Of a DNA stretch of 64,000 nucleotides, positions 43,017 through 51,653 are shown piece by piece. The notes below the pieces were generated by a model. That model had not been told where the DNA came from and searched no databases. It was given only the letters and a program-made list of their open reading frames with translations. A program made the position numbers and the translations under genes. Source of the stretch: Arcobacter sp. (lineage in GTDB: Bacteria; Campylobacterota; Campylobacteria; Campylobacterales; Arcobacteraceae). The stretch's first letter is position 1; each line of letters begins with the position of its first letter. The DNA is taken from contig PKUJ01000002.1 in NCBI GenBank assembly GCA_002869565.1, forward strand, positions 1 through 64,000. Direction: 5' to 3'.

Positions 43017-44498
43017 TCACTTTAATTTATTATGATTTATCTTTCCCCTTTTATTTTCATTTCTTGTATATTTAGCAATTTTTGAAACTATAACTTCTAG
43101 ATTATCTTCACATTTAAGGTAGTTACTTATTTTTGTAAATGCTTCATCCATTCGTTGATGCTCTTCTTGCATAATATCAAGGTTATGTAGTTTGATTTTA
43201 AGGTCTTTAACTTCATCTCTTAACTTTTTATTCATACCAAAGTATGATTTTGATTGTTCAACTTTTAAATTTAGCTCTTTAGATAAAGTTTGTTCTTGTT
43301 GCAGTTGCTCTTCTAGGTTTCTATTCTCTCCTAAAAGCTTGTAATATCTTCTCTTGGTTACATAGTATGTATTTATATTGTTTTGTTGATTTAAGAGGGT
43401 TGTATTTTCTTCTATTAGCTTTTTATTTTCAAGTAGTAAATCTTGTGGATGATTTAGTCCATTCATTGAATCAATAAACTCATTATACTTATGTAGGTGT
43501 TTAGCATAGAAGTCAAGGTACTGTTTTAGTCTATCTTCATCTAACTTTGTAAAACCTAGCTTAGTAGTGATACATTCACCTAATATTTCATCGGTATCAT
43601 AAACTTTAGTTGGTTTTATATCTATGGTTGGTTTATCTTCTTTTATGGTATGGATTGTAGTTTCAAGTTCCTCTTTTTCTTTTGTAAGTGACTCTAGGGT
43701 TAAGCTTTCATTCTTGAGCTCTAACCTCGCTTTTTTAATAGAACTATCAATGCTATCAAGTTCACTCTTTAACTGTTTCTTATCTTCTACCGTTTTTTTT
43801 AGGTTCTTCTTTTGAGATTGAAGTTGTTTGATATGGTCTTGAATATCTTTTTTAAGTTGTTTAATCTCTTCTTCATGCATTTGTCTAACTGATAAATGTT
43901 TTGCAGTTGATTTTCTATCACCTCTTTCAAGTCCTATATCTTTAAAGGTAGATGCTACTATATCTTGAAACTCTGATAGTCTTCCACTTTTTCTTAGGTT
44001 ATACCATACAGCTTCACCATTTTTAGTGTGGTTGTTAAATGCAAAATGCATATGAGGTGTCTTCTCATCATAGTGGATTACATAATGAGATAACTTAATG
44101 CTATCATCACCTAAGATGGTATGTATCTTATCTTGGATTAATGGTACTGAGTCTGTAAAAGATTTTTCTAGTTGCTCTTTGGTTACTTTACCTTGTTTTA
44201 TCCATTCATTTATAATAGGACTTAGGGTAATAACTCCTGTTAGATGATCTGATTGTTTACTTTTTTGTAAGTTTCTATGATGTTTGTTTTTATATAATTG
44301 ATTATATTCATCAAAGCTTTTTTTAGCTTGTTGTTTTAATTGTTTTGGATCATACCCAAAGTAGATATTATCAAACTTGTTGTGATACATATTATGTCTT
44401 AGGTAATTGGGTTTAGCAATTCTAAAGTCATGGTTTATGCTTTGAATAGTTTTACTAGTAGTTGCAAAACGAACTTGTACTTTTCTTTTTTGATTCAA
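43017..44498 (-). CDS. MobV-family relaxase (Pre/Mob)
   Basis: A 493-aa relaxase that would nick the island DNA at its transfer origin and pilot it during conjugation driven by a helper. The metal-binding histidine motif is HYDEKTPHMHFAF (about 149-161), as in MobV proteins, within the N-terminal catalytic domain. Residues about 220-470 are a long Lys/Glu-rich coiled coil. No type IV secretion genes are present, so transfer must depend on another element. The transfer-origin-like region lies directly upstream. Confidence 0.9.
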   Translation of the reverse strand: MNQKRKVQVRFATTSKTIQSINHDFRIAKPNYLRHNMYHNKFDNIYFGYDPKQLKQQAKKSFDEYNQLYKNKHHRNLQKSKQSDHLTGVITLSPIINEWIKQGKVTKEQLEKSFTDSVPLIQDKIHTILGDDSIKLSHYVIHYDEKTPHMHFAFNNHTKNGEAVWYNLRKSGRLSEFQDIVASTFKDIGLERGDRKSTAKHLSVRQMHEEEIKQLKKDIQDHIKQLQSQKKNLKKTVEDKKQLKSELDSIDSSIKKARLELKNESLTLESLTKEKEELETTIHTIKEDKPTIDIKPTKVYDTDEILGECITTKLGFTKLDEDRLKQYLDFYAKHLHKYNEFIDSMNGLNHPQDLLLENKKLIEENTTLLNQQNNINTYYVTKRRYYKLLGENRNLEEQLQQEQTLSKELNLKVEQSKSYFGMNKKLRDEVKDLKIKLHNLDIMQEEHQRMDEAFTKISNYLKCEDNLEVIVSKIAKYTRNENKRGKINHNKLK

Positions 44499-44823
44499 AA
44501 TACTTCTCCTTAGAGTATAGAATAACGGGGATTTTTAAGGGTGGCGACTGTACCCCTTGAACTTACAACCTAACACAAAGTGAGAGGTTAGTAAGTTGTA
44601 TTTATGGTTTACCTAAATACATGGTACATAGGCACACAGTGCATACGTACTTCTTATGTTTTTAAATTAAATAGTTTAAAATATATTTGTACGTAAAATC
44701 AATAATTTTTTTAGGTGGCACGATTTTTTTATCTTATTTAATTTATTAAGTTTTATCCAAAAACTATTAGATAAAAAAATGTGCGTACTGCGTATCAAAT
44801 ATTGGATAGCATTTAAAAATAAA
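44499..44823. other. Candidate origin of transfer region
   Basis: A 325-base gap upstream of the relaxase gene without a supported gene. It holds a hairpin at 44560-44597 (AACTTAC-AACC with GGTT-A-GTAAGTT, loop with AACACAAAGTGAG), a GGGG...CCCC pair around 44527-44556, and an imperfect palindrome at 44623-44651. MobV origins usually lie just upstream of the relaxase gene and contain such a hairpin; the nick site cannot be fixed from sequence alone. Confidence 0.5.
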
Positions 44824-45402
44824 CTAAGCAGTATCATGAGCAGTTGATTTGGTTGTTCTTGGTTTCTGTGTGTAAGCTCTTGATTTTTTCTTTTTTTCTT
44901 TTTCTACTTCATACATACATATCAAAGCATCCCAATTAGTATATTCTAAATCTGATTCTGTCTCTTTTTCTATATCTGGCTCTATCTCTATTGGACTTTT
45001 TTGGACACTTGATGGACAATGTCCAATTTGTTTATTTTTAGCACGTTGATTTCTTTTTAGTTCCGCCCATTTTGTCTCAGAACCTACCATGTTTTGGGTT
45101 TCTATCATAAATAGTGTGCCATCATCCCATCTTTCCATTAATTTAAGTTCTATAAATAAATTAACTGCAACTTTTACTGTATCAATTGATGTATCTGTTA
45201 TCGTTGCTAGCATATCAGGGGAATATGGAATTGTATTTCTAAAAAAGAGTTCTCCTTCACTTTCTACACTTTTAAGTAAAAGTTTCAAGTAAAATATAAT
45301 GTAATCTTTTCCATTTTGCTGATTTTCGATTATTTTGATTTCTTCTCTATCAAAAAAATCATTCTTTAGTTTTAACCAAAAAAACTTTTTGTTGGTATGC
45401 AT
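44824..45402 (-). CDS. Phage-type replisome organiser (replication initiator-like)
   Basis: A 192-aa protein whose N-terminal 120 residues match the phage replisome organiser domain: KFFWLKLKNDFF, IIENQQNGKDYIIFYLKLLL, SEGELFFRNTIPYSPDMLA. The C-terminal part is hydrophilic and Lys-rich. Proteins of this type open an origin and recruit host helicase. In this island it may support replication after excision. AAAGG lies before the ATG. Confidence 0.75.
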   Translation of the reverse strand: MHTNKKFFWLKLKNDFFDREEIKIIENQQNGKDYIIFYLKLLLKSVESEGELFFRNTIPYSPDMLATITDTSIDTVKVAVNLFIELKLMERWDDGTLFMIETQNMVGSETKWAELKRNQRAKNKQIGHCPSSVQKSPIEIEPDIEKETESDLEYTNWDALICMYEVEKEKKKKSRAYTQKPRTTKSTAHDTA

Positions 45403-45465
45403 TATTTACCTTTAATATATAATTAAAAGTTAAATAATCATGTGCAATTTATAATATGTTATAAT

Positions 45466-45541
45466 GCAAATGATTAAAACCTATCTTGGGATTTAATTAA
45501 CGCTCTCTCTTGGACTCGGCAAAGTATTAAGAGAGAGTTTT
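45466..45541 (+). ncRNA. Candidate small RNA with terminator
   Basis: Two TATAAT hexamers (45450-45455 and 45460-45465) are followed about 40 bases later by a perfect 9-bp stem, CTCTCTCTT (45503-45511) with AAGAGAGAG (45529-45537), and TTTTATATA. That would give an RNA of about 65-75 bases. It lies between the replication organiser and the excisionase gene. The promoter hexamers might instead serve the minus-strand gene. Confidence 0.4.
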
Positions 45542-45740
45542 ATATATTTCTATATTTATTTTTTTGTGAGTTTACCCATTCTATTACTTCTTTTTGTGAG
45601 TAAAGTTTTGTTTTTGTGTTTTCAAAGCTGAAGCTTTTTGGAAAGCTTTCATTTATTTTTATATTCTCATAGAACTTTCTCGTTGATACATTTAGCAACT
45701 CACATACTTCTTTAATTTTTAGTAATCTGTCTTTTTCCAT
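45540..45740 (-). CDS. AlpA-like excisionase / DNA-binding protein
   Basis: A 66-aa winged-helix or MerR-like DNA-binding protein: RLLKIKEVCELLNVSTRKFYENI, FPKSF and YSQKEVIEWVNSQK match AlpA-family regulators, which control or assist integrase-mediated excision. Start 45740 is set by AAAGGAAA 8 bases upstream; the longer frame to 45791 has no site. Location at the end opposite the integrase fits an excisionase. Confidence 0.8.
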   Translation of the reverse strand: MEKDRLLKIKEVCELLNVSTRKFYENIKINESFPKSFSFENTKTKLYSQKEVIEWVNSQKNKYRNI

Positions 45741-45957
45741 TTGATTGTTTCCTTTGCTTTTTGATTGAATTACTTGCGTTATTATAAACAAAAAACTCTA
45801 TTAAAGTCAAGAGGTAAAATAGCCACAAAGCACTATTTTATGGTGTCTGTAGCTTATAAAGGAAGTTTGATTTTATTTAATATTAATTAATATATAATCT
45901 AGGGAAAGATATACTATTAAATTACTTTTTCTTAAAAATTGGAAAGATAAATTTATT

Positions 45958-45977
45958 ACGGTATTATTAACGGTACT
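45958..45977. promoter_or_regulatory. Right integrase arm-type sites
   Basis: ACGGTATT (45958-45965) and ACGGTACT (45970-45977), 12 bases apart, as in the left pair. They lie 56 bases inside attR. Confidence 0.6.
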
Positions 45978-46032
45978 ATAAATATTTAAATTTATAAAAA
46001 GTCCATATTTTGGGACTTAAATTAGTATAATT

Positions 46033-46081
46033 GAGTTCCAAATCGTGCCAGTAAAGCTACTTCCTCAAGATTAATAAATAA
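46033..46081 (+). repeat. attR: original yciI 3' end
   Basis: Matches 31095-31143 at 45 of 49 bases. Read in frame it gives EFQIVPVKLLPQD and stop, i.e. the displaced natural end of yciI, and is followed by the original terminator. Confidence 0.88.
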
Positions 46082-46085
46082 ATCA

Positions 46086-46115
46086 AATAAGCCTATATTA
46101 TAGGGCTTATTTTTG
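46086..46115 (+). terminator. Original yciI terminator
   Basis: AATAAGCC and GGCTTATT form an 8-bp stem followed by five T. It lies directly after the displaced yciI 3' end. Confidence 0.75.
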
Positions 46116-46295
46116 AAATTATTCTTCATATCTAATCATAAAAATCAAGCTAAATCAAGTTTCTTTCATGCACTAGATTTATTTATTTTAATTGTGCAGC
46201 TAAGTGATTTTCATGACACGATGTTTGATATTAAATGTTAAATTAGCTTTGTGTTAACTATTGATTATGCATTAGTTAATAGTATACTAGTATGA

Positions 46296-46418
46296 TTTTT
46301 ATATAACTTAAGAAGAAGTGTGAATCTTCTTAAAAAGTTTAAAAGCTGCGAACTTTTAAACTTATAAAATTTGTTTCCTTGTGTGAAAAAAGCTTCTTGA
46401 AAAAGAAGCTTTTTTTTT
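46296..46418 (+). ncRNA. Candidate three-hairpin small RNA
   Basis: Three consecutive hairpins: TTAAGAAGA/TCTTCTTAA (46308-46333), an 11-bp AAGTTTAAAAG/CTTTTAAACTT (46335-46363, loop CTGCGAA), and a terminator GCTTCTT/AAGAAGC with loop GAAA and nine T (46386-46418). A TTGATT -35 (46261-46266) and TATACT -10 (46283-46288) with a 16-base spacer lie just upstream. No open frame fits. The arrangement is that of an independent sRNA of about 120 bases. Confidence 0.65.
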
Positions 46419-46511
46419 GCCCAATTAATTTTTTATAACTAATCTTTTTATTGTCTTTATATTTTAATTATTAAGCTATACTGATTATATAATTCAAAGA
46501 AAGGAGTTAAA

Positions 46512-46613
46512 ATGGCAAAAGGAAAAGATGTACAAAAGTCAGCTAAAACTGCACCTGCAAAATCATTAAAAGAAAAAAGAGCTGATAAAAAAGCAAAGAA
46601 AGATTCTAAGTAA
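46512..46613 (+). CDS. Small Lys/Ala-rich protein, 33 aa
   Basis: A 33-aa very basic protein (MAKGKDVQKSAKTAPAKS...DKKAKKDSK) with AAAGGAG 6 bases before the ATG. Similar small Lys/Ala-rich proteins are annotated in related genomes from memory, but no function is known. Its charge suggests nucleic acid or ribosome binding. Confidence 0.6.
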   Translation: MAKGKDVQKSAKTAPAKSLKEKRADKKAKKDSK

Positions 46614-46732
46614 TATTTAATTTATTTCATAAAATAATGCTCTTATTTTGAGCTTTTACTTAAATATTGAAAATATTATCTTGATAATAAAGTATTAAAC
46701 TATAATTTTAAGTGAGTAAAAGGTTTTGTCTT

Positions 46733-46966
46733 TTACTCATCAAATTCTTGATATCTTTGTTTTGAATTAAGAAAATCACTATCATCATAATCGTCATTAT
46801 CATCAAAATCATCATAATCAATTGTAAAAATTTTGTCATAACCTAATTTTACAAGTTCTAAATCAAGATTTTCTTCAGATACTCTATTTTTGACTTTAGA
46901 TATTATTAGCTCAATATCTTCTTCTTTGACATCGTTAGCTCTTAATTCATATATAATCGAATCCAC
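46733..46966 (-). CDS. Hypothetical protein with acidic tail, 77 aa
   Basis: A 77-aa soluble protein with a helical N-terminal half (YELRANDVKEEDIELIISKVKNR) and an Asp-rich C-terminal stretch (DYDDFDDNDDYDDSDF). Translation starts at GTG with AGGAG 8 bases upstream. No family is recognised. The first half resembles small helical adaptor domains only in general composition. Confidence 0.55.
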   Translation of the reverse strand: MDSIIYELRANDVKEEDIELIISKVKNRVSEENLDLELVKLGYDKIFTIDYDDFDDNDDYDDSDFLNSKQRYQEFDE

Positions 46967-47348
46967 TTAACATACTCCTATATAAAAAACTAAATTTAAG
47001 TGTTAGTATAAAAGTACTCTAATAATAAGAGTACACCATGATTTCTGAAAACTCTAAAAAAATACACGGCCAAATGCTTTGATGGGTTTTCACAAATACT
47101 CAATCTCTAAATATAATTATAAACTATAAAAAAAGAAAAAAGCTAAAAAAAATCTTAAAATAATTTATAAGTAGCTATTGAGCCGATTTTTAGGGATTTG
47201 TCACAAATGAAATTTTATATAAGTATCTATACATTTTTATTAATTGAATAAAAAAATCACAAAATTTGTCAAGAAATTGTCAATAAAACTTACCTTTATA
47301 ATTTAACAATTTCCTTTATACTTCTCTTATAAGAAAAAAGGAGAAGAA
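46967..47348. promoter_or_regulatory. Intergenic region with candidate response-regulator site and cytochrome promoter
   Basis: No supported gene in 382 bases. A hairpin GTACTCT/AGAGTAC lies near 47008-47031. TTGTCA occurs at 47198-47203 and, as a direct repeat with 11-base spacing, at 47266-47271 and 47277-47282, just upstream of TATAAT (47297-47302). AAAGGAG precedes the first cytochrome gene. An 11-base direct repeat is typical of OmpR/PhoB-type binding sites. Confidence 0.5.
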
Positions 47349-47753
47349 ATGAAAACGATAATATTAGTATTTTTAGCTGTAACTTTTAACTATGCTTCAG
47401 TAGTTAGTGAATATTTAAATTCATTAGAAAGTGAAGTGAAGAAAGAGAATCCAAGTTTTAAAGGATTTGATATTCAAAGAGGTGAAAAAATATTTACTTC
47501 AAAGCATATTGGAAAAAAAGGCAAAGAAATTTCATGTGTATCTTGTCACACAAATAACTTTAGCCAAAATGGTGAAAACTTTTTTACGGGAAAAGTAATT
47601 AAGCCACTTTCTCCAGTTGCAAATCCTAAAAGATTTTCTAAACTAAAAGATATTAAAAAATGGTTGAGAAGAAATTTTAATGATGTTTATAAAAGAGAAG
47701 GTACAGCACTTGAAAAAGGTGATGTTGTAACATATATATTGAGTAAGGATTAA
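47349..47753 (+). CDS. SHP-like monoheme cytochrome c (DUF1924)
   Basis: A 134-aa exported cytochrome with a signal peptide (about 1-16), one heme site CVSCH and downstream KPLSPVANPKRFSKLKDIKKWLRRNF, typical of DUF1924/sphaeroides heme protein. SHP-type proteins bind oxygen and nitric oxide at the heme. The next two genes encode DHC-type and b561-type partners, matching the known shp-dhc-cytochrome b gene set of other proteobacteria. The gene order suggests an electron chain from quinol through b561 and DHC to SHP. Confidence 0.83.
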   Translation: MKTIILVFLAVTFNYASVVSEYLNSLESEVKKENPSFKGFDIQRGEKIFTSKHIGKKGKEISCVSCHTNNFSQNGENFFTGKVIKPLSPVANPKRFSKLKDIKKWLRRNFNDVYKREGTALEKGDVVTYILSKD

Positions 47754-47756
47754 AAA

Positions 47757-48284
47757 ATGAAAAAAACAATTTTATTAGCAGTAATTTTACTTGCAAGTAG
47801 TTTTTCAATATTATCAGCAAGTGACTATAAAAATTACAAAAGAAATATTAACGTAGAGACAAATCAGACTTATGTAAATGAGTGTGCTTCATGTCATATG
47901 GCTTTTCAAGCACAATTTTTACCTAAACGTTCTTGGAATAAAATGATGGATACCTTAGAAAATCATTTTGGTGTAGATGCAACTTTGGAAAAAGTTGATG
48001 AAGATAAGATAAGAAAATATCTAGTTGACAATTCAAGTGATTCAAAATTTGCATATGGTGAGATGGCAGAGTTTGCAAATTCTATAAGTAGATCATCAAC
48101 ACCATTAGCTATTAGTGAGGTTCCAAAATTCAAAAGAGAACATAGAAAAATCTCTAAAAGATTAATTTCTCAAAAAGAAGTAAAATCTATAAGTAATTGT
48201 CTTGCATGTCATACAGATGCAAAAGAAGGATTGTATAGAGAAAGAAATATTTTAATCCCAAATTACGGAAGATGGGATGACTAA
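47757..48284 (+). CDS. Diheme cytochrome c (DHC)
   Basis: A 175-aa periplasmic diheme cytochrome with signal peptide (about 1-21) and heme sites CASCH (near 45) and CLACH (near 153). Between them lies FLPKRSWNKMMDTLENHFGVDATL, a segment that is repeated almost unchanged in the C-terminal domain of the next protein. It would pass electrons to the SHP-like protein. It begins 3 bases after the previous gene. Confidence 0.88.
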   Translation: MKKTILLAVILLASSFSILSASDYKNYKRNINVETNQTYVNECASCHMAFQAQFLPKRSWNKMMDTLENHFGVDATLEKVDEDKIRKYLVDNSSDSKFAYGEMAEFANSISRSSTPLAISEVPKFKREHRKISKRLISQKEVKSISNCLACHTDAKEGLYRERNILIPNYGRWDD

Positions 48285-48295
48285 AGGAATATAAA

Positions 48296-49414
48296 ATGAT
48301 GAAGTCATATATTTGGTCAATACCCACGCGGGTATTTCATATACTTTTTGCATTATTTATTTTATTGGCATTTTTAACTGGTGATGAGGATAGATTTTTA
48401 AATTATCATGCAGTTATAGGATATTTTGTATTTATTCTTTTATCTTTTAGAATTATTTGGGGATTTTTTGGACCTAAACATTCAAGATTTAAAGATTTTC
48501 CTTTGTCAATAAAGAAAGCAAAAGATTTTATGTTAACTATTTTTGAAAAGAAACAAAACTATGTTGGACATAATCCTATGGCTTCATATGTAATGGTGGC
48601 GATGCTAGTTGTCACCTTTCTTATAATTTTATCAGGGGTTTTAACTTTTGGAATACAAGAAGGAAAGGGTCTCTTTTCTTATTTAAATTCTAGCATGTTT
48701 AAAGAAATGGATTTATTCAAAGAGATTCATGAAATTTTATCTAATCTTTTAATTGCCCTTATTGCAGCTCATCTTGGTGGAGTTGTTTTTGATAGATTGT
48801 TTCATAAAAAAGATGAAACTTTAAATTCAATTGTAACAGGATATAAAGTTACAAGTGAAGATAATAGTATTTCATTAAATATGTTTCAGAAAACTATATT
48901 TATTTTCTTTGTACTTTTATTTGTAGGCTTTGTTATATTTAATATCAATCAACCTAAAAATCTTTTAGTTGCATCGGTTTATACTCCCATAGACTATAAA
49001 GTTCAAAATGAACTTTTTGTTACTGAATGTGGATCATGTCATACTTTGTATACTCCTAATTTATTGCCAAAAAAATCTTGGCGGTTGATTATGTCGGATT
49101 TAGAAAATCATTTTGGAGATGATGCTTCTTTAGAAAAAGAAGATAATATTAGTATTTTGAATTTTCTTCTTAAAAATTCGGCAGAAGAGTCTACAAAAGA
49201 AGTTAGTTTTAAGATATTAGATTCAATAAAAAATAAAGATATAATAGCAATTAGTGATACAGTATTTTGGAAACATACCCATAAAGATATTCCTAAAACA
49301 CTATTTTCACATGAACAGATAAAAAGTAAAGCTAATTGTAAAGCGTGTCATTTAGATATTGAGAAAGGACTTATAGAAGATGAAAATATTAAAAGTATTG
49401 ATAGTTTTAAGTAG
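48296..49414 (+). CDS. Cytochrome b561 fused to a DHC-like diheme domain
   Basis: A 372-aa membrane protein. Residues 1-185 form a four-helix cytochrome b561 domain with IWSIPTRVFHILFA and the histidines of YHAVIGY and AAHLGG. After another membrane helix (about 198-218), residues 230-372 form a periplasmic DHC-like domain with CGSCH and CKACH and LLPKKSWRLIMSDLENHFGDDASL, nearly the same as the preceding DHC gene. The fusion joins quinol oxidation and a diheme relay in one chain, and suggests duplication of the DHC gene. It overlaps the next gene by 35 bases. Confidence 0.88.
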   Translation: MMKSYIWSIPTRVFHILFALFILLAFLTGDEDRFLNYHAVIGYFVFILLSFRIIWGFFGPKHSRFKDFPLSIKKAKDFMLTIFEKKQNYVGHNPMASYVMVAMLVVTFLIILSGVLTFGIQEGKGLFSYLNSSMFKEMDLFKEIHEILSNLLIALIAAHLGGVVFDRLFHKKDETLNSIVTGYKVTSEDNSISLNMFQKTIFIFFVLLFVGFVIFNINQPKNLLVASVYTPIDYKVQNELFVTECGSCHTLYTPNLLPKKSWRLIMSDLENHFGDDASLEKEDNISILNFLLKNSAEESTKEVSFKILDSIKNKDIIAISDTVFWKHTHKDIPKTLFSHEQIKSKANCKACHLDIEKGLIEDENIKSIDSFK

Positions 49415-49790
49415 TTTATTTATCTATTCACTATCTTTTGCTGATGATGATGAAAAAAAATCCCATAATCATAAAAAAAATCATTTTTATAAAAATTTGG
49501 ATTTTTTAGATTTAGATAAAAATCAATATAATGAATTACGAACTATTTTGATTGATTATAAATCTGACTATAAAAAATATTATAAATATAAAAAAAATGA
49601 AGAAGAAGAACTTGTTTTAATAATGAGAGAAGAAGTTTTTGATACTGAAAAATATATTAATATTTTAAAAAATATAAAAAATAGAGGGATTCAATTGGAA
49701 GTGGATAATCTAAAAAAGATTCATTCAATTTTAAACAAAAAACAAAGAAAATTGTTTTCACATTATTTAGAGGATTGGGAAGTTGATTAG
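49380..49790 (+). CDS. Periplasmic CpxP/Spy-like protein
   Basis: A 136-aa exported protein with signal peptide (about 1-21, ending in FADD) followed by a His/Lys-rich segment (KKSHNHKKNH) and a helical domain with LDLDKNQYNELRTILIDY and ILNKKQRKLFSHYLEDWE. The helical plan and paired Q-x-x-L motifs resemble CpxP/Spy/LTXXQ proteins, which sense or buffer envelope stress. Position before a two-component system fits a periplasmic accessory sensor. Metal binding by the His-rich stretch is an inference. Confidence 0.6.
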   Translation: MKILKVLIVLSSLFIYSLSFADDDEKKSHNHKKNHFYKNLDFLDLDKNQYNELRTILIDYKSDYKKYYKYKKNEEEELVLIMREEVFDTEKYINILKNIKNRGIQLEVDNLKKIHSILNKKQRKLFSHYLEDWEVD

Positions 49791-50448
49791 AAAAGTATTA
49801 TTAATAGAAGATGATATTCAGATGCAAACTTTTATCAAGGAGTATCTTCAAGATTATAATTTCGATTGTATAGCTTTCTCAAATCCTAGAGAAGCTCTTA
49901 CTGAGTTGGAGCAAAACAAGCAATTTGATATTATTATTTTGGATTTAATGCTCCCTGAAATTGATGGATTTGATGTGTTTAAAAGAATAAAAAAAATACA
50001 AGATATTCCAATCATTATTTCATCTGCAAGGGGAGATATTGGTAATAAAATTCATGGTTTTGAATTAGGAGCAGATGATTATCTTTCAAAACCATACGAA
50101 CCAAGAGAACTAGTATTAAGAATTGAACATATATTAAAGAAAATTAAGAATCATATACAAACTATAAGTGATTTTAAAATAGATAGAGAAAATAGAAATA
50201 TATTAATAGATGGATATTCAATTGATTTTACAAAAATTGAATTAGAAATTTTTCTATTTTTAATAGACAATATAAATAAAATATCTTCAAGAGAACAAAT
50301 TATAAATGCCACTTCATTAGAAGATGGAACAAAAAATAGAACAATTGATATGCATATCTCTAATATTAGATATAAAATTGGCGATGATTCAAAAGAACCT
50401 AAATACATTAAATCTGTTTGGGGTATTGGATATAAATTTTTAGGATGA
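49783..50448 (+). CDS. OmpR-family response regulator
   Basis: A 221-aa regulator with a receiver domain (EDD near residue 8, phosphoacceptor Asp in LDLMLPEIDG near 52, Lys in SKPYEP near 100) and an OmpR-type winged helix ending in YIKSVWGIGYKFLG. It begins at a TTG overlapping the end of the upstream gene by 8 bases. It is paired with the kinase 5 bases downstream and probably controls the cytochrome operon through the TTGTCA repeats at 47266-47282. Confidence 0.93.
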   Translation: MIRKVLLIEDDIQMQTFIKEYLQDYNFDCIAFSNPREALTELEQNKQFDIIILDLMLPEIDGFDVFKRIKKIQDIPIIISSARGDIGNKIHGFELGADDYLSKPYEPRELVLRIEHILKKIKNHIQTISDFKIDRENRNILIDGYSIDFTKIELEIFLFLIDNINKISSREQIINATSLEDGTKNRTIDMHISNIRYKIGDDSKEPKYIKSVWGIGYKFLG

Positions 50449-50453
50449 AATAG

Positions 50454-51653
50454 ATGTCGATTTTCAAAAAAATTACAATTCTTTTTATAATAAGTTTCTC
50501 ACTTATGACTGTTATAGGTCTATGGATAGATAATATTAATTCCAAAAGAATTGAAAATTTGATGAAAGACAAGTATATTAAAGTTGGTAATGAAATATTA
50601 AATAATATAGACAATAAAGAAGTTCTTTTTGGCATAACTAGTAAATATAATTTAAACTTGTATAAAATTAAAAAAGATGAAGATTATATACTTTTATATA
50701 AAAAAAAGCACACTTTTGGATTTATATCAATAAGCAAAGAATCTCTTGATAACGAATATATATTAGAAGTACAATATTTAGATGAATATATAGTTTTAGT
50801 TACAAAAGAACAAGAAAATATTAATGACAAGTTGATTTTAAATGTGCTTATATTTATAGATATAATTGTACTTGTGTTGATTTTTTTGTATATTTTAAAA
50901 TTGCTTTCTCCTCTTAAAACAATTGCAAATAAGATTACAGATTTTTCAAATGGAAATTTAAAAAGTCGTATAGATATAGATTCTAATGATGAGATTGGAA
51001 TATTATCTAACTCTTTTAATAAGATGGCTTCAAGGTTAGAAAAGCTCATAAAAACAAGAGAAGAGCTTTTAAGAGATATTGGGCATGAATTAAGAACTCC
51101 TATTGCAAAAGGAAAGTTTGCGATAGAAAAAATTGATGATTTCTCACAAAAAGAGTTGTTGAGGAAAATATTTCTTGATTTAGAACTTTTGACAAATGAT
51201 TTAATTGAATTAGAAAAATTAAATTCAAATGAACTTGATTTTACTGTTTTTGATATTGAAACATTAATAGTTGAGTCTTTGCAAAGGCTTCACATTGAAG
51301 ATGAATCTACAATAGATATAGATATAGCTGATAATTTTAAACTTAATGGCGATTTACATTATTTGATAATTGCAGTTAAAAATTTAATCGACAATGCTTT
51401 AAAATATACTACTAGACTACCTATTAAAATTTCAACAAAAAATGAATCTATTTTTATATCTAGTAGTGGAGAAAAATTGAATAAAGATTTAACATATTAT
51501 TTACAACCTTTCACTCAAGAATTAGCTCAAAGAGATGGTTTTGGATTGGGATTAAGTATTGTGAATAAGATTGTTACAAAACATGAGTTTATACTTTCTT
51601 ATGCGCATAAAAACCAAGAGAATATTTTTATTATTGATTTTAAGAAAAGATAG
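50454..51653 (+). CDS. Sensor histidine kinase
   Basis: A 399-aa membrane kinase: first membrane segment about 7-25, a periplasmic domain of about 100 residues, second segment about 127-149, HAMP, HisKA with IGHELRTPIAK, and an ATPase domain with NLIDNALKYT and GFGLGLSIVNK. Partner of the response regulator just upstream. The CpxP/Spy-like protein and cytochromes in the same cluster suggest an envelope or redox signal. Confidence 0.93.
   Translation: MSIFKKITILFIISFSLMTVIGLWIDNINSKRIENLMKDKYIKVGNEILNNIDNKEVLFGITSKYNLNLYKIKKDEDYILLYKKKHTFGFISISKESLDNEYILEVQYLDEYIVLVTKEQENINDKLILNVLIFIDIIVLVLIFLYILKLLSPLKTIANKITDFSNGNLKSRIDIDSNDEIGILSNSFNKMASRLEKLIKTREELLRDIGHELRTPIAKGKFAIEKIDDFSQKELLRKIFLDLELLTNDLIELEKLNSNELDFTVFDIETLIVESLQRLHIEDESTIDIDIADNFKLNGDLHYLIIAVKNLIDNALKYTTRLPIKISTKNESIFISSSGEKLNKDLTYYLQPFTQELAQRDGFGLGLSIVNKIVTKHEFILSYAHKNQENIFIIDFKKR

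Follow-up and report, generated by a model that had tools for sequence, protein, structure and literature searches.

Positions 46243-46418 of the window, as the 64,000-nucleotide stretch of Arcobacter sp. DNA analysed here is called, most likely form a stand-alone small-RNA gene with a conserved structure and a terminator. The conserved unit starts near 46243 and lies between open reading frames at 45540-45791 (- strand) and 46512-46613 (+ strand), in the gene-free setting described by the earlier note on this DNA. That note had proposed a small RNA with three hairpins and of no recognised family, and the proposal is supported by the evidence overall; its hairpins, terminator and gene-free setting stand, whereas the promoter that it named does not. 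The features of the locus are:

46243-46281, + strand: four TTA-type boxes (TTAGCT at 46243, TTAACT at 46254, TTATGC at 46265, TTAATA at 46276), from the promoter alignment
46291-46296, + strand: -10 element TATGAT, aligned with TATAAT of other copies
46303-46418, + strand: small RNA of about 116 nt, its start placed from the -10 element and its end from the T run
46308-46333, + strand: hairpin 1, 9 bp, loop AGUGUGAA; most other copies have a GCGAA-type loop
46335-46363, + strand: hairpin 2, 11 bp, loop CUGCGAA, from the fold, the copies and covariation
46373-46385, + strand: single-stranded GUUUCCUUGUGUG, the putative pairing strand, conserved in the family and complementary to ribosome-binding sites
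46386-46418, + strand: intrinsic terminator, a 13-bp hairpin (46386-46415) with a GAAA loop and nine T

Both perfect stems claimed for the locus are present, the first of 9 bp (TTAAGAAGA/TCTTCTTAA, 46308-46316 with 46325-46333) and the second of 11 bp (AAGTTTAAAAG/CTTTTAAACTT, 46335-46345 with 46353-46363), as are the terminator hairpin and its nine T at 46410-46418, although this terminator was missing from the output of a consensus terminator scan. Folding of the + strand of 46261-46418 gave a z of -5.4 and none of 200 shuffles folded as well; the - strand also folds well (z -7.7), so that the strand of the RNA is not given by folding alone. Coding potential is absent as claimed, with no small protein gene on the transcript strand of 46290-46418 when open reading frames of at least 20 amino acids were sought, and a single one of 20 amino acids with a TTG start on the - strand. 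Nor did any Rfam 15 family reach its gathering score across the small-RNA stretch, the only matches at that level in the whole window being tRNAs. The best match below threshold was Phe_leader, on the terminator (E 0.014, 28.9 bits against a gathering score of 55); this, STnc370, PyrR and others that appeared at a loose threshold were rejected, each being under its own gathering score.

The open reading frame downstream (46512-46613, + strand) would encode a lysine-rich product of 33 amino acids (MAKGKDVQKSAKTAPAKSLKEKRADKKAKKDSK), has a good ribosome-binding site and found no Pfam or NCBIfam match. Further on, a gene run at 47349-51653 (+ strand) comprises DUF1924, two dihaem cytochrome c proteins, one of them fused to cytochrome b561, a small exported protein and an OmpR-type two-component system, and is possibly a redox-sensing operon.

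The earlier note had named a lack of stem conservation in relatives as one observation that would refute a small RNA; in 25 copies from the genus the stems proved to be conserved. A covariance model was built from six copies and refitted to these 25, and the pair counts accordingly lean towards that structure: in the fitted alignment standard pairs made up 96.3% of 788 pair cells and changes on both sides were found in 16 of 33 pairs, with such changes in 5 of the 8 modelled pairs of helix 1 and 6 of the 12 of helix 2. None of 500 shuffles reached any of the five measures used, and sliding the partners lowered every measure. An alignment from sequence only was discarded, since MAFFT misplaced the stems and RNAalifold recovered the terminator only. 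Minimum-energy folds, computed independently, gave this hairpin plan for most of the 27 copies; L009, L012, L013, L017 and L021 were among those that departed from it. The strand GUUUCCUUGUGUG is conserved as strongly as the loops.

A DNA search of 60 genomes found a match in 20, and all 16 searched genomes of the window's genus carry the small RNA. Outside it, G027, from a different genus of the family, matched clearly, and three further genomes matched only in part, over short runs of 31 to 69 bases. With the copies that the conserved core added later, six genomes have between two and four, and the window's own genome (G000) has three, the window copy and two on contig C20. Exact matches to the core pattern numbered 25 stretches, of which eight were titled Arcobacter, Malaciobacter, Halarcobacter (a genus in Arcobacteraceae, Campylobacterota) or Campylobacteraceae; the other 17, which include two from a single Vibrio contig, were regarded as chance matches. 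The two Vibrio matches (L301 and L310) are 1.9 kb apart and may be chance or a repeated segment. A structure model run on 298 genomes sampled from the class matched five at E<=1e-5, the window's genome and four of one other genus of the family, which indicates that this type of RNA is narrowly spread.

When the loci around 13 other copies were compared with positions 44001-49500 of the window, the match was confined to about 46238-46467, the small-RNA unit. A cis-acting leader, or a remnant, of a downstream gene such as the 33-amino-acid frame at 46512 would, like the unit, stand upstream of a frame with a good ribosome-binding site, but the unit ends in a terminator and its neighbourhood varies, as this comparison demonstrates, and such a reading is highly improbable. 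Some copies are in tandem and the neighbourhoods change from copy to copy, as would be expected if the unit were a repeat propagated by transposition that played no part in regulation; invariance at 21 of 70 promoter columns, covarying stems and a conserved pairing strand argue against this, and make it extremely improbable. In two loci (L052 and L317) copies stand upstream of a gene for a UvrD/PcrA-like helicase, identified by eye, and this place is possibly the ancestral site of the small RNA.

The promoter proposed in the earlier note, TTGATT-16-TATACT, exists as sequence, yet it is not the promoter conserved in 27 related copies. A stretch of 2 kb gave 27 promoter-like matches, this one among them, where shuffles gave 14.8; its TTGATT overlaps an array of 11-bp repeats, and the conserved -10 element TATGAT sits 8 bp downstream of its TATACT. 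The aligned promoters (n=27, from 17 genomes) are gapless across the 70 columns, with TTA or TT at columns 9, 20, 31 and 42, in steps of exactly 11 bp, and the -10 element at columns 57-62, while the letters from box 4 to the -10 element vary among copies. No conserved -35 hexamer was seen in the 27 aligned promoters. Direct repeats with 11-bp steps that replace a -35 element are typical of OmpR/PhoB-type activators, and the four boxes are a putative binding array for an OmpR-type response regulator. Sought with up to two mismatches in the window's genome, the box pattern matched 35+33 times and its reverse 37+25 times, which is no signal at this tolerance; the full promoter model alone was used.

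The same four-box array, at the same step to a -10 element, was found before degP in 20 of 21 loci (the 16 of the genus and four of five further ones), where it was the sole match to the pattern within each locus. In all 16 genus genomes degP is directly followed by genes for an OmpR-type regulator and a kinase, the arrangement of a CprRS/ArsRS-type regulon, in which regulator and kinase stand next to htrA/degP. The small RNA thus has the promoter box of an envelope-stress gene, degP, and putatively its control. DegP of the window's genome passes the Do-family cut-off; a fragment of the kinase reached 230 bits against the ArsS family, for which the cut-off, set for the whole protein, is 250, and the regulator's top NCBIfam scores (CreB, BaeR) are under their cut-offs, its best solved relative being BaeR. 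Among genomes of the family a promoter match (E<1e-4) was found in 26 of 29 with a close relative of the regulator (E<=1e-60) and in one of eight without, a difference (p 8.5e-5) that is indicative only because the genomes are related. The exception, G018, has a strong promoter match and no close regulator relative was found in it; its assembly is in about 280 contigs and the stretch with degP ends right after the gene.

Because the boxes are shared, the small RNA is likely to be controlled by the CprRS/ArsRS-like system of the degP operon. Another candidate would be the window's own two-component system (49783-51653), which also pairs an OmpR-type regulator with a kinase and lies beside the cytochrome genes only 3.4 kb downstream of the RNA. 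Its control of the RNA is very unlikely, as the box recurs before degP and its regulator in the 20 loci mentioned and the comparison with the 13 other copies' stretches shows nothing in common but the small-RNA unit.

A promoter-only model trained on the 27 copies of the window's type (type A) revealed further RNAs under the same box. In the window's genome five sites scored E<1e-4, three of them copies in the training set and two, C25:201485 (L053) and C21:3131 (L054), further RNAs outside it, which share the plan of the copies, have GCGAA or GUGAA in their loops and carry other C-rich pairing strands (UUCUCCU and UUCUCCG). Across the 60 genomes 39 were matched at E<=0.01, 33 of 37 within the family and 6 of 23 outside, and sibling small RNAs with the same box are found in other genomes (L126-L148). 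Of 61 promoter places read, 46 were judged by the author to stand before small-RNA-like sequences, two of them the type-A copies of G027, and 15 before protein genes. DegP/HtrA accounts for seven of these 15 (one by Pfam, four by homology and two by N-terminal likeness); an EF-hand protein and two proteins that are Spy/CpxP-like by eye were also found. Of the 44 RNAs that are not type A, 33 contain TCTCC, which was counted 42 times against 2.5 in mononucleotide shuffles. One short RNA-like unit under the box, L156 (G025:C1:905838, UUUUUCUCCUCCU), has no GCGAA loop; its genome is complete and belongs to a different genus of the family.

Two genes, prs and one of OmpA type, have ribosome-binding sites complementary to the strand GUUUCCUUGUGUG. 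Whether this extends past the Shine-Dalgarno core was assessed by keeping the core UUUCCUU and shuffling its flanks, a score having to exceed 95% of the shuffles; ompA passed in 15 of the 16 genus members and prs in 13, against 1/16 for degP, 4/36 for starts in the window and 6/57 for other starts. Within the genus the RNA thus has, in ompA, the complementarity to the start of an outer-membrane protein mRNA that marks the MicA/RybB/OmrAB class. In a second comparison each species' own RNA was scored against a background of 251 Shine-Dalgarno-bearing starts from mixed species, with starts containing CACAAGGAA left out. Against it prs was in the best 5% in 14 of the 16 genus members and ompA in 13. 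The counts of the two comparisons are not independent, since a pattern search guided the choice of targets and the species share ancestry. In the window's genome prs beat all 251 starts (-20.1 kcal/mol), while 28 of them did at least as well as ompA; in G020 and G017, from two other genera, neither gene stood out against the background. Taken together the flank shuffles and the background scores make ompA and prs supported candidates in the genus.

The target list may be wider than these two. In 11 genus genomes CACAAGGAA-ATG had 60 matches, against 40 for the reversed pattern, a weak excess. The pattern with a start codon marks prs (in five genomes), ompA, mlaA and a DUF3373 gene, and also TonB-dependent receptors, a CsgG-like gene, thioredoxin-like lipoprotein genes and three cytosolic-looking families, the names being from Pfam with one example each and a frame of 70 amino acids receiving none. 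On the author's reading six of the ten gene families with matching starts are exported. The control used the list of non-CAC sites for G006; from its first 43 entries 40 were fetched and three passed over (223696, together with 672170 and 673179, where ompA and prs begin). Gene starts were present in 19 of the 40 stretches, and seven of the 19 look exported. The difference between 6/10 and 7/19 is not significant (p 0.27), and enrichment of exported proteins is therefore not claimed. In five loci read (L200, L203, L204, L213 and L238) the ompA-type gene comes next after prs, and the leaders of the two genes look alike there, as if the control region had been duplicated.

Another recurrent feature of these RNAs is the GCGAA loop. 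Of the 44 siblings that are not type A, 29 carry GCGAA, with 49 occurrences in all against 1.3 in mononucleotide shuffles, and 41 of the 49 are unpaired in the predicted fold. Hfq, on which the class of MicA, RybB and OmrA/B depends, was not found in the window's genome (no PF17209 match), in a search whose control gave a signal in 5 of 14 known genomes; with no detectable Hfq the RNA would act alone or with another protein, for which the GCGAA loops are a candidate contact site. Both observations would suit an RNA whose function is to be loaded on, or to act as a decoy for, a protein that recognises GCGAA hairpins, pairing with mRNA being secondary. Yet conservation is no weaker in the pairing strand than in the loops, the strand matches the starts of ompA and prs, the window copy has GUGAA in hairpin 1 and 15 of the 44 siblings have no GCGAA, so that such a function is distinctly unlikely.

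The gene unit, its structure, its copies, the box that it shares, the layout of the operon and the complementarity are all computed properties of the genomes. They are best accommodated if the OmpR-type regulator of the degP operon drives the small RNA in envelope stress and the RNA lowers translation of the OmpA-type gene and prs without Hfq, which is probably the case. Envelope damage would lead the kinase to activate the regulator, most likely the product of the CprRS/ArsRS-like degP(htrA)-regulator-kinase operon, which would occupy the four boxes 11 bp apart that stand in for a -35 element. It would then raise degP and its own operon and at the same time switch on the small RNA and its siblings. 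The RNA of about 116 nt would fold into two hairpins with GCGAA-type loops and the terminator, leaving GUUUCCUUGUGUG exposed to cover the ribosome-binding sites of two mRNAs, that of the OmpA-type gene and that of prs, which lies directly upstream of it, and this pairing would lower translation, and with it outer-membrane protein synthesis, with no need of Hfq. Transcription, binding by the regulator, induction by stress and repression are the steps that we infer. That prs is not an envelope gene counts against this reading. A bolder version, in which Arcobacteraceae have an Hfq-free envelope-stress response built on a modular superfamily of small RNAs, with one regulator box common to all, GCGAA hairpins in most on which an RNA-binding protein docks and an exchanged anti-Shine-Dalgarno strand, such that GUUUCCUUGUGUG, UUCUCCU and UUCUCCG would send siblings to different mRNAs, is tentative and unlikely.

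This is a real RNA family, apparently undescribed, whose functional kind is known and some of whose features are unusual. In C. jejuni htrA adjoins cprRS. The degP operon, where an OmpR-type regulator and its kinase are likewise tied to htrA and to further genes of the envelope, appears analogous to that system, and the available texts describe CprR as an essential OmpR-like regulator (PMC9449129) and CprRS as taking part in regulating htrA along with other genes of the envelope (PMC4518328). No description of a small RNA within the CprRS regulon was found in the literature searched, nor was one of an envelope-stress small RNA of this kind in this bacterial branch, and none of this RNA family, its box or its circuit was found in Rfam or that literature. 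Those envelope-stress small RNAs found described, in the available part of PMC7602753, are Hfq-dependent and gammaproteobacterial. MicA and RybB of E. coli and Salmonella are stress-induced, sigma-E-driven and Hfq-dependent, and pair with the 5' regions of major outer-membrane protein mRNAs, including ompA (PMC7602753). The Arcobacter RNA would resemble them as a stress small RNA with predicted pairing to such 5' regions, and differs in having a putative response regulator in place of sigma-E, no Hfq found in its genome and no match to any Rfam family. OmrA and OmrB, near-identical siblings, and CpxQ belong to the OmpR/CpxR envelope regulons, and the Arcobacter RNA would likewise be part of a two-component envelope regulon; OmrA/B, however, are Hfq-dependent and pair through the 5' end, whereas the strand proposed here lies just before the terminator (PMC7602753).

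If the proposed circuit is true, a multi-copy, regulator-driven and Hfq-free family in Campylobacterota would be an independent solution to the envelope-stress problem. The circuit is testable, with one regulator, degP, several sibling RNAs and the predicted targets ompA and prs, and the recurrent GCGAA hairpin could act as bait for an RNA chaperone in these bacteria. Within the same phylum CjNC1 and CjNC4 of Campylobacter are also paralogous non-coding RNAs, set apart by their description in the available text as sigma-28-dependent and investigated for flagellar assembly (PMC4626219). Stav et al. (2019) analysed Arcobacter sp. L and, in the available text, left most of the remaining novel intergenic motifs, which were confined to Arcobacter, unnamed (PMC6429828); one of these may be the present RNA family or a sibling of it.
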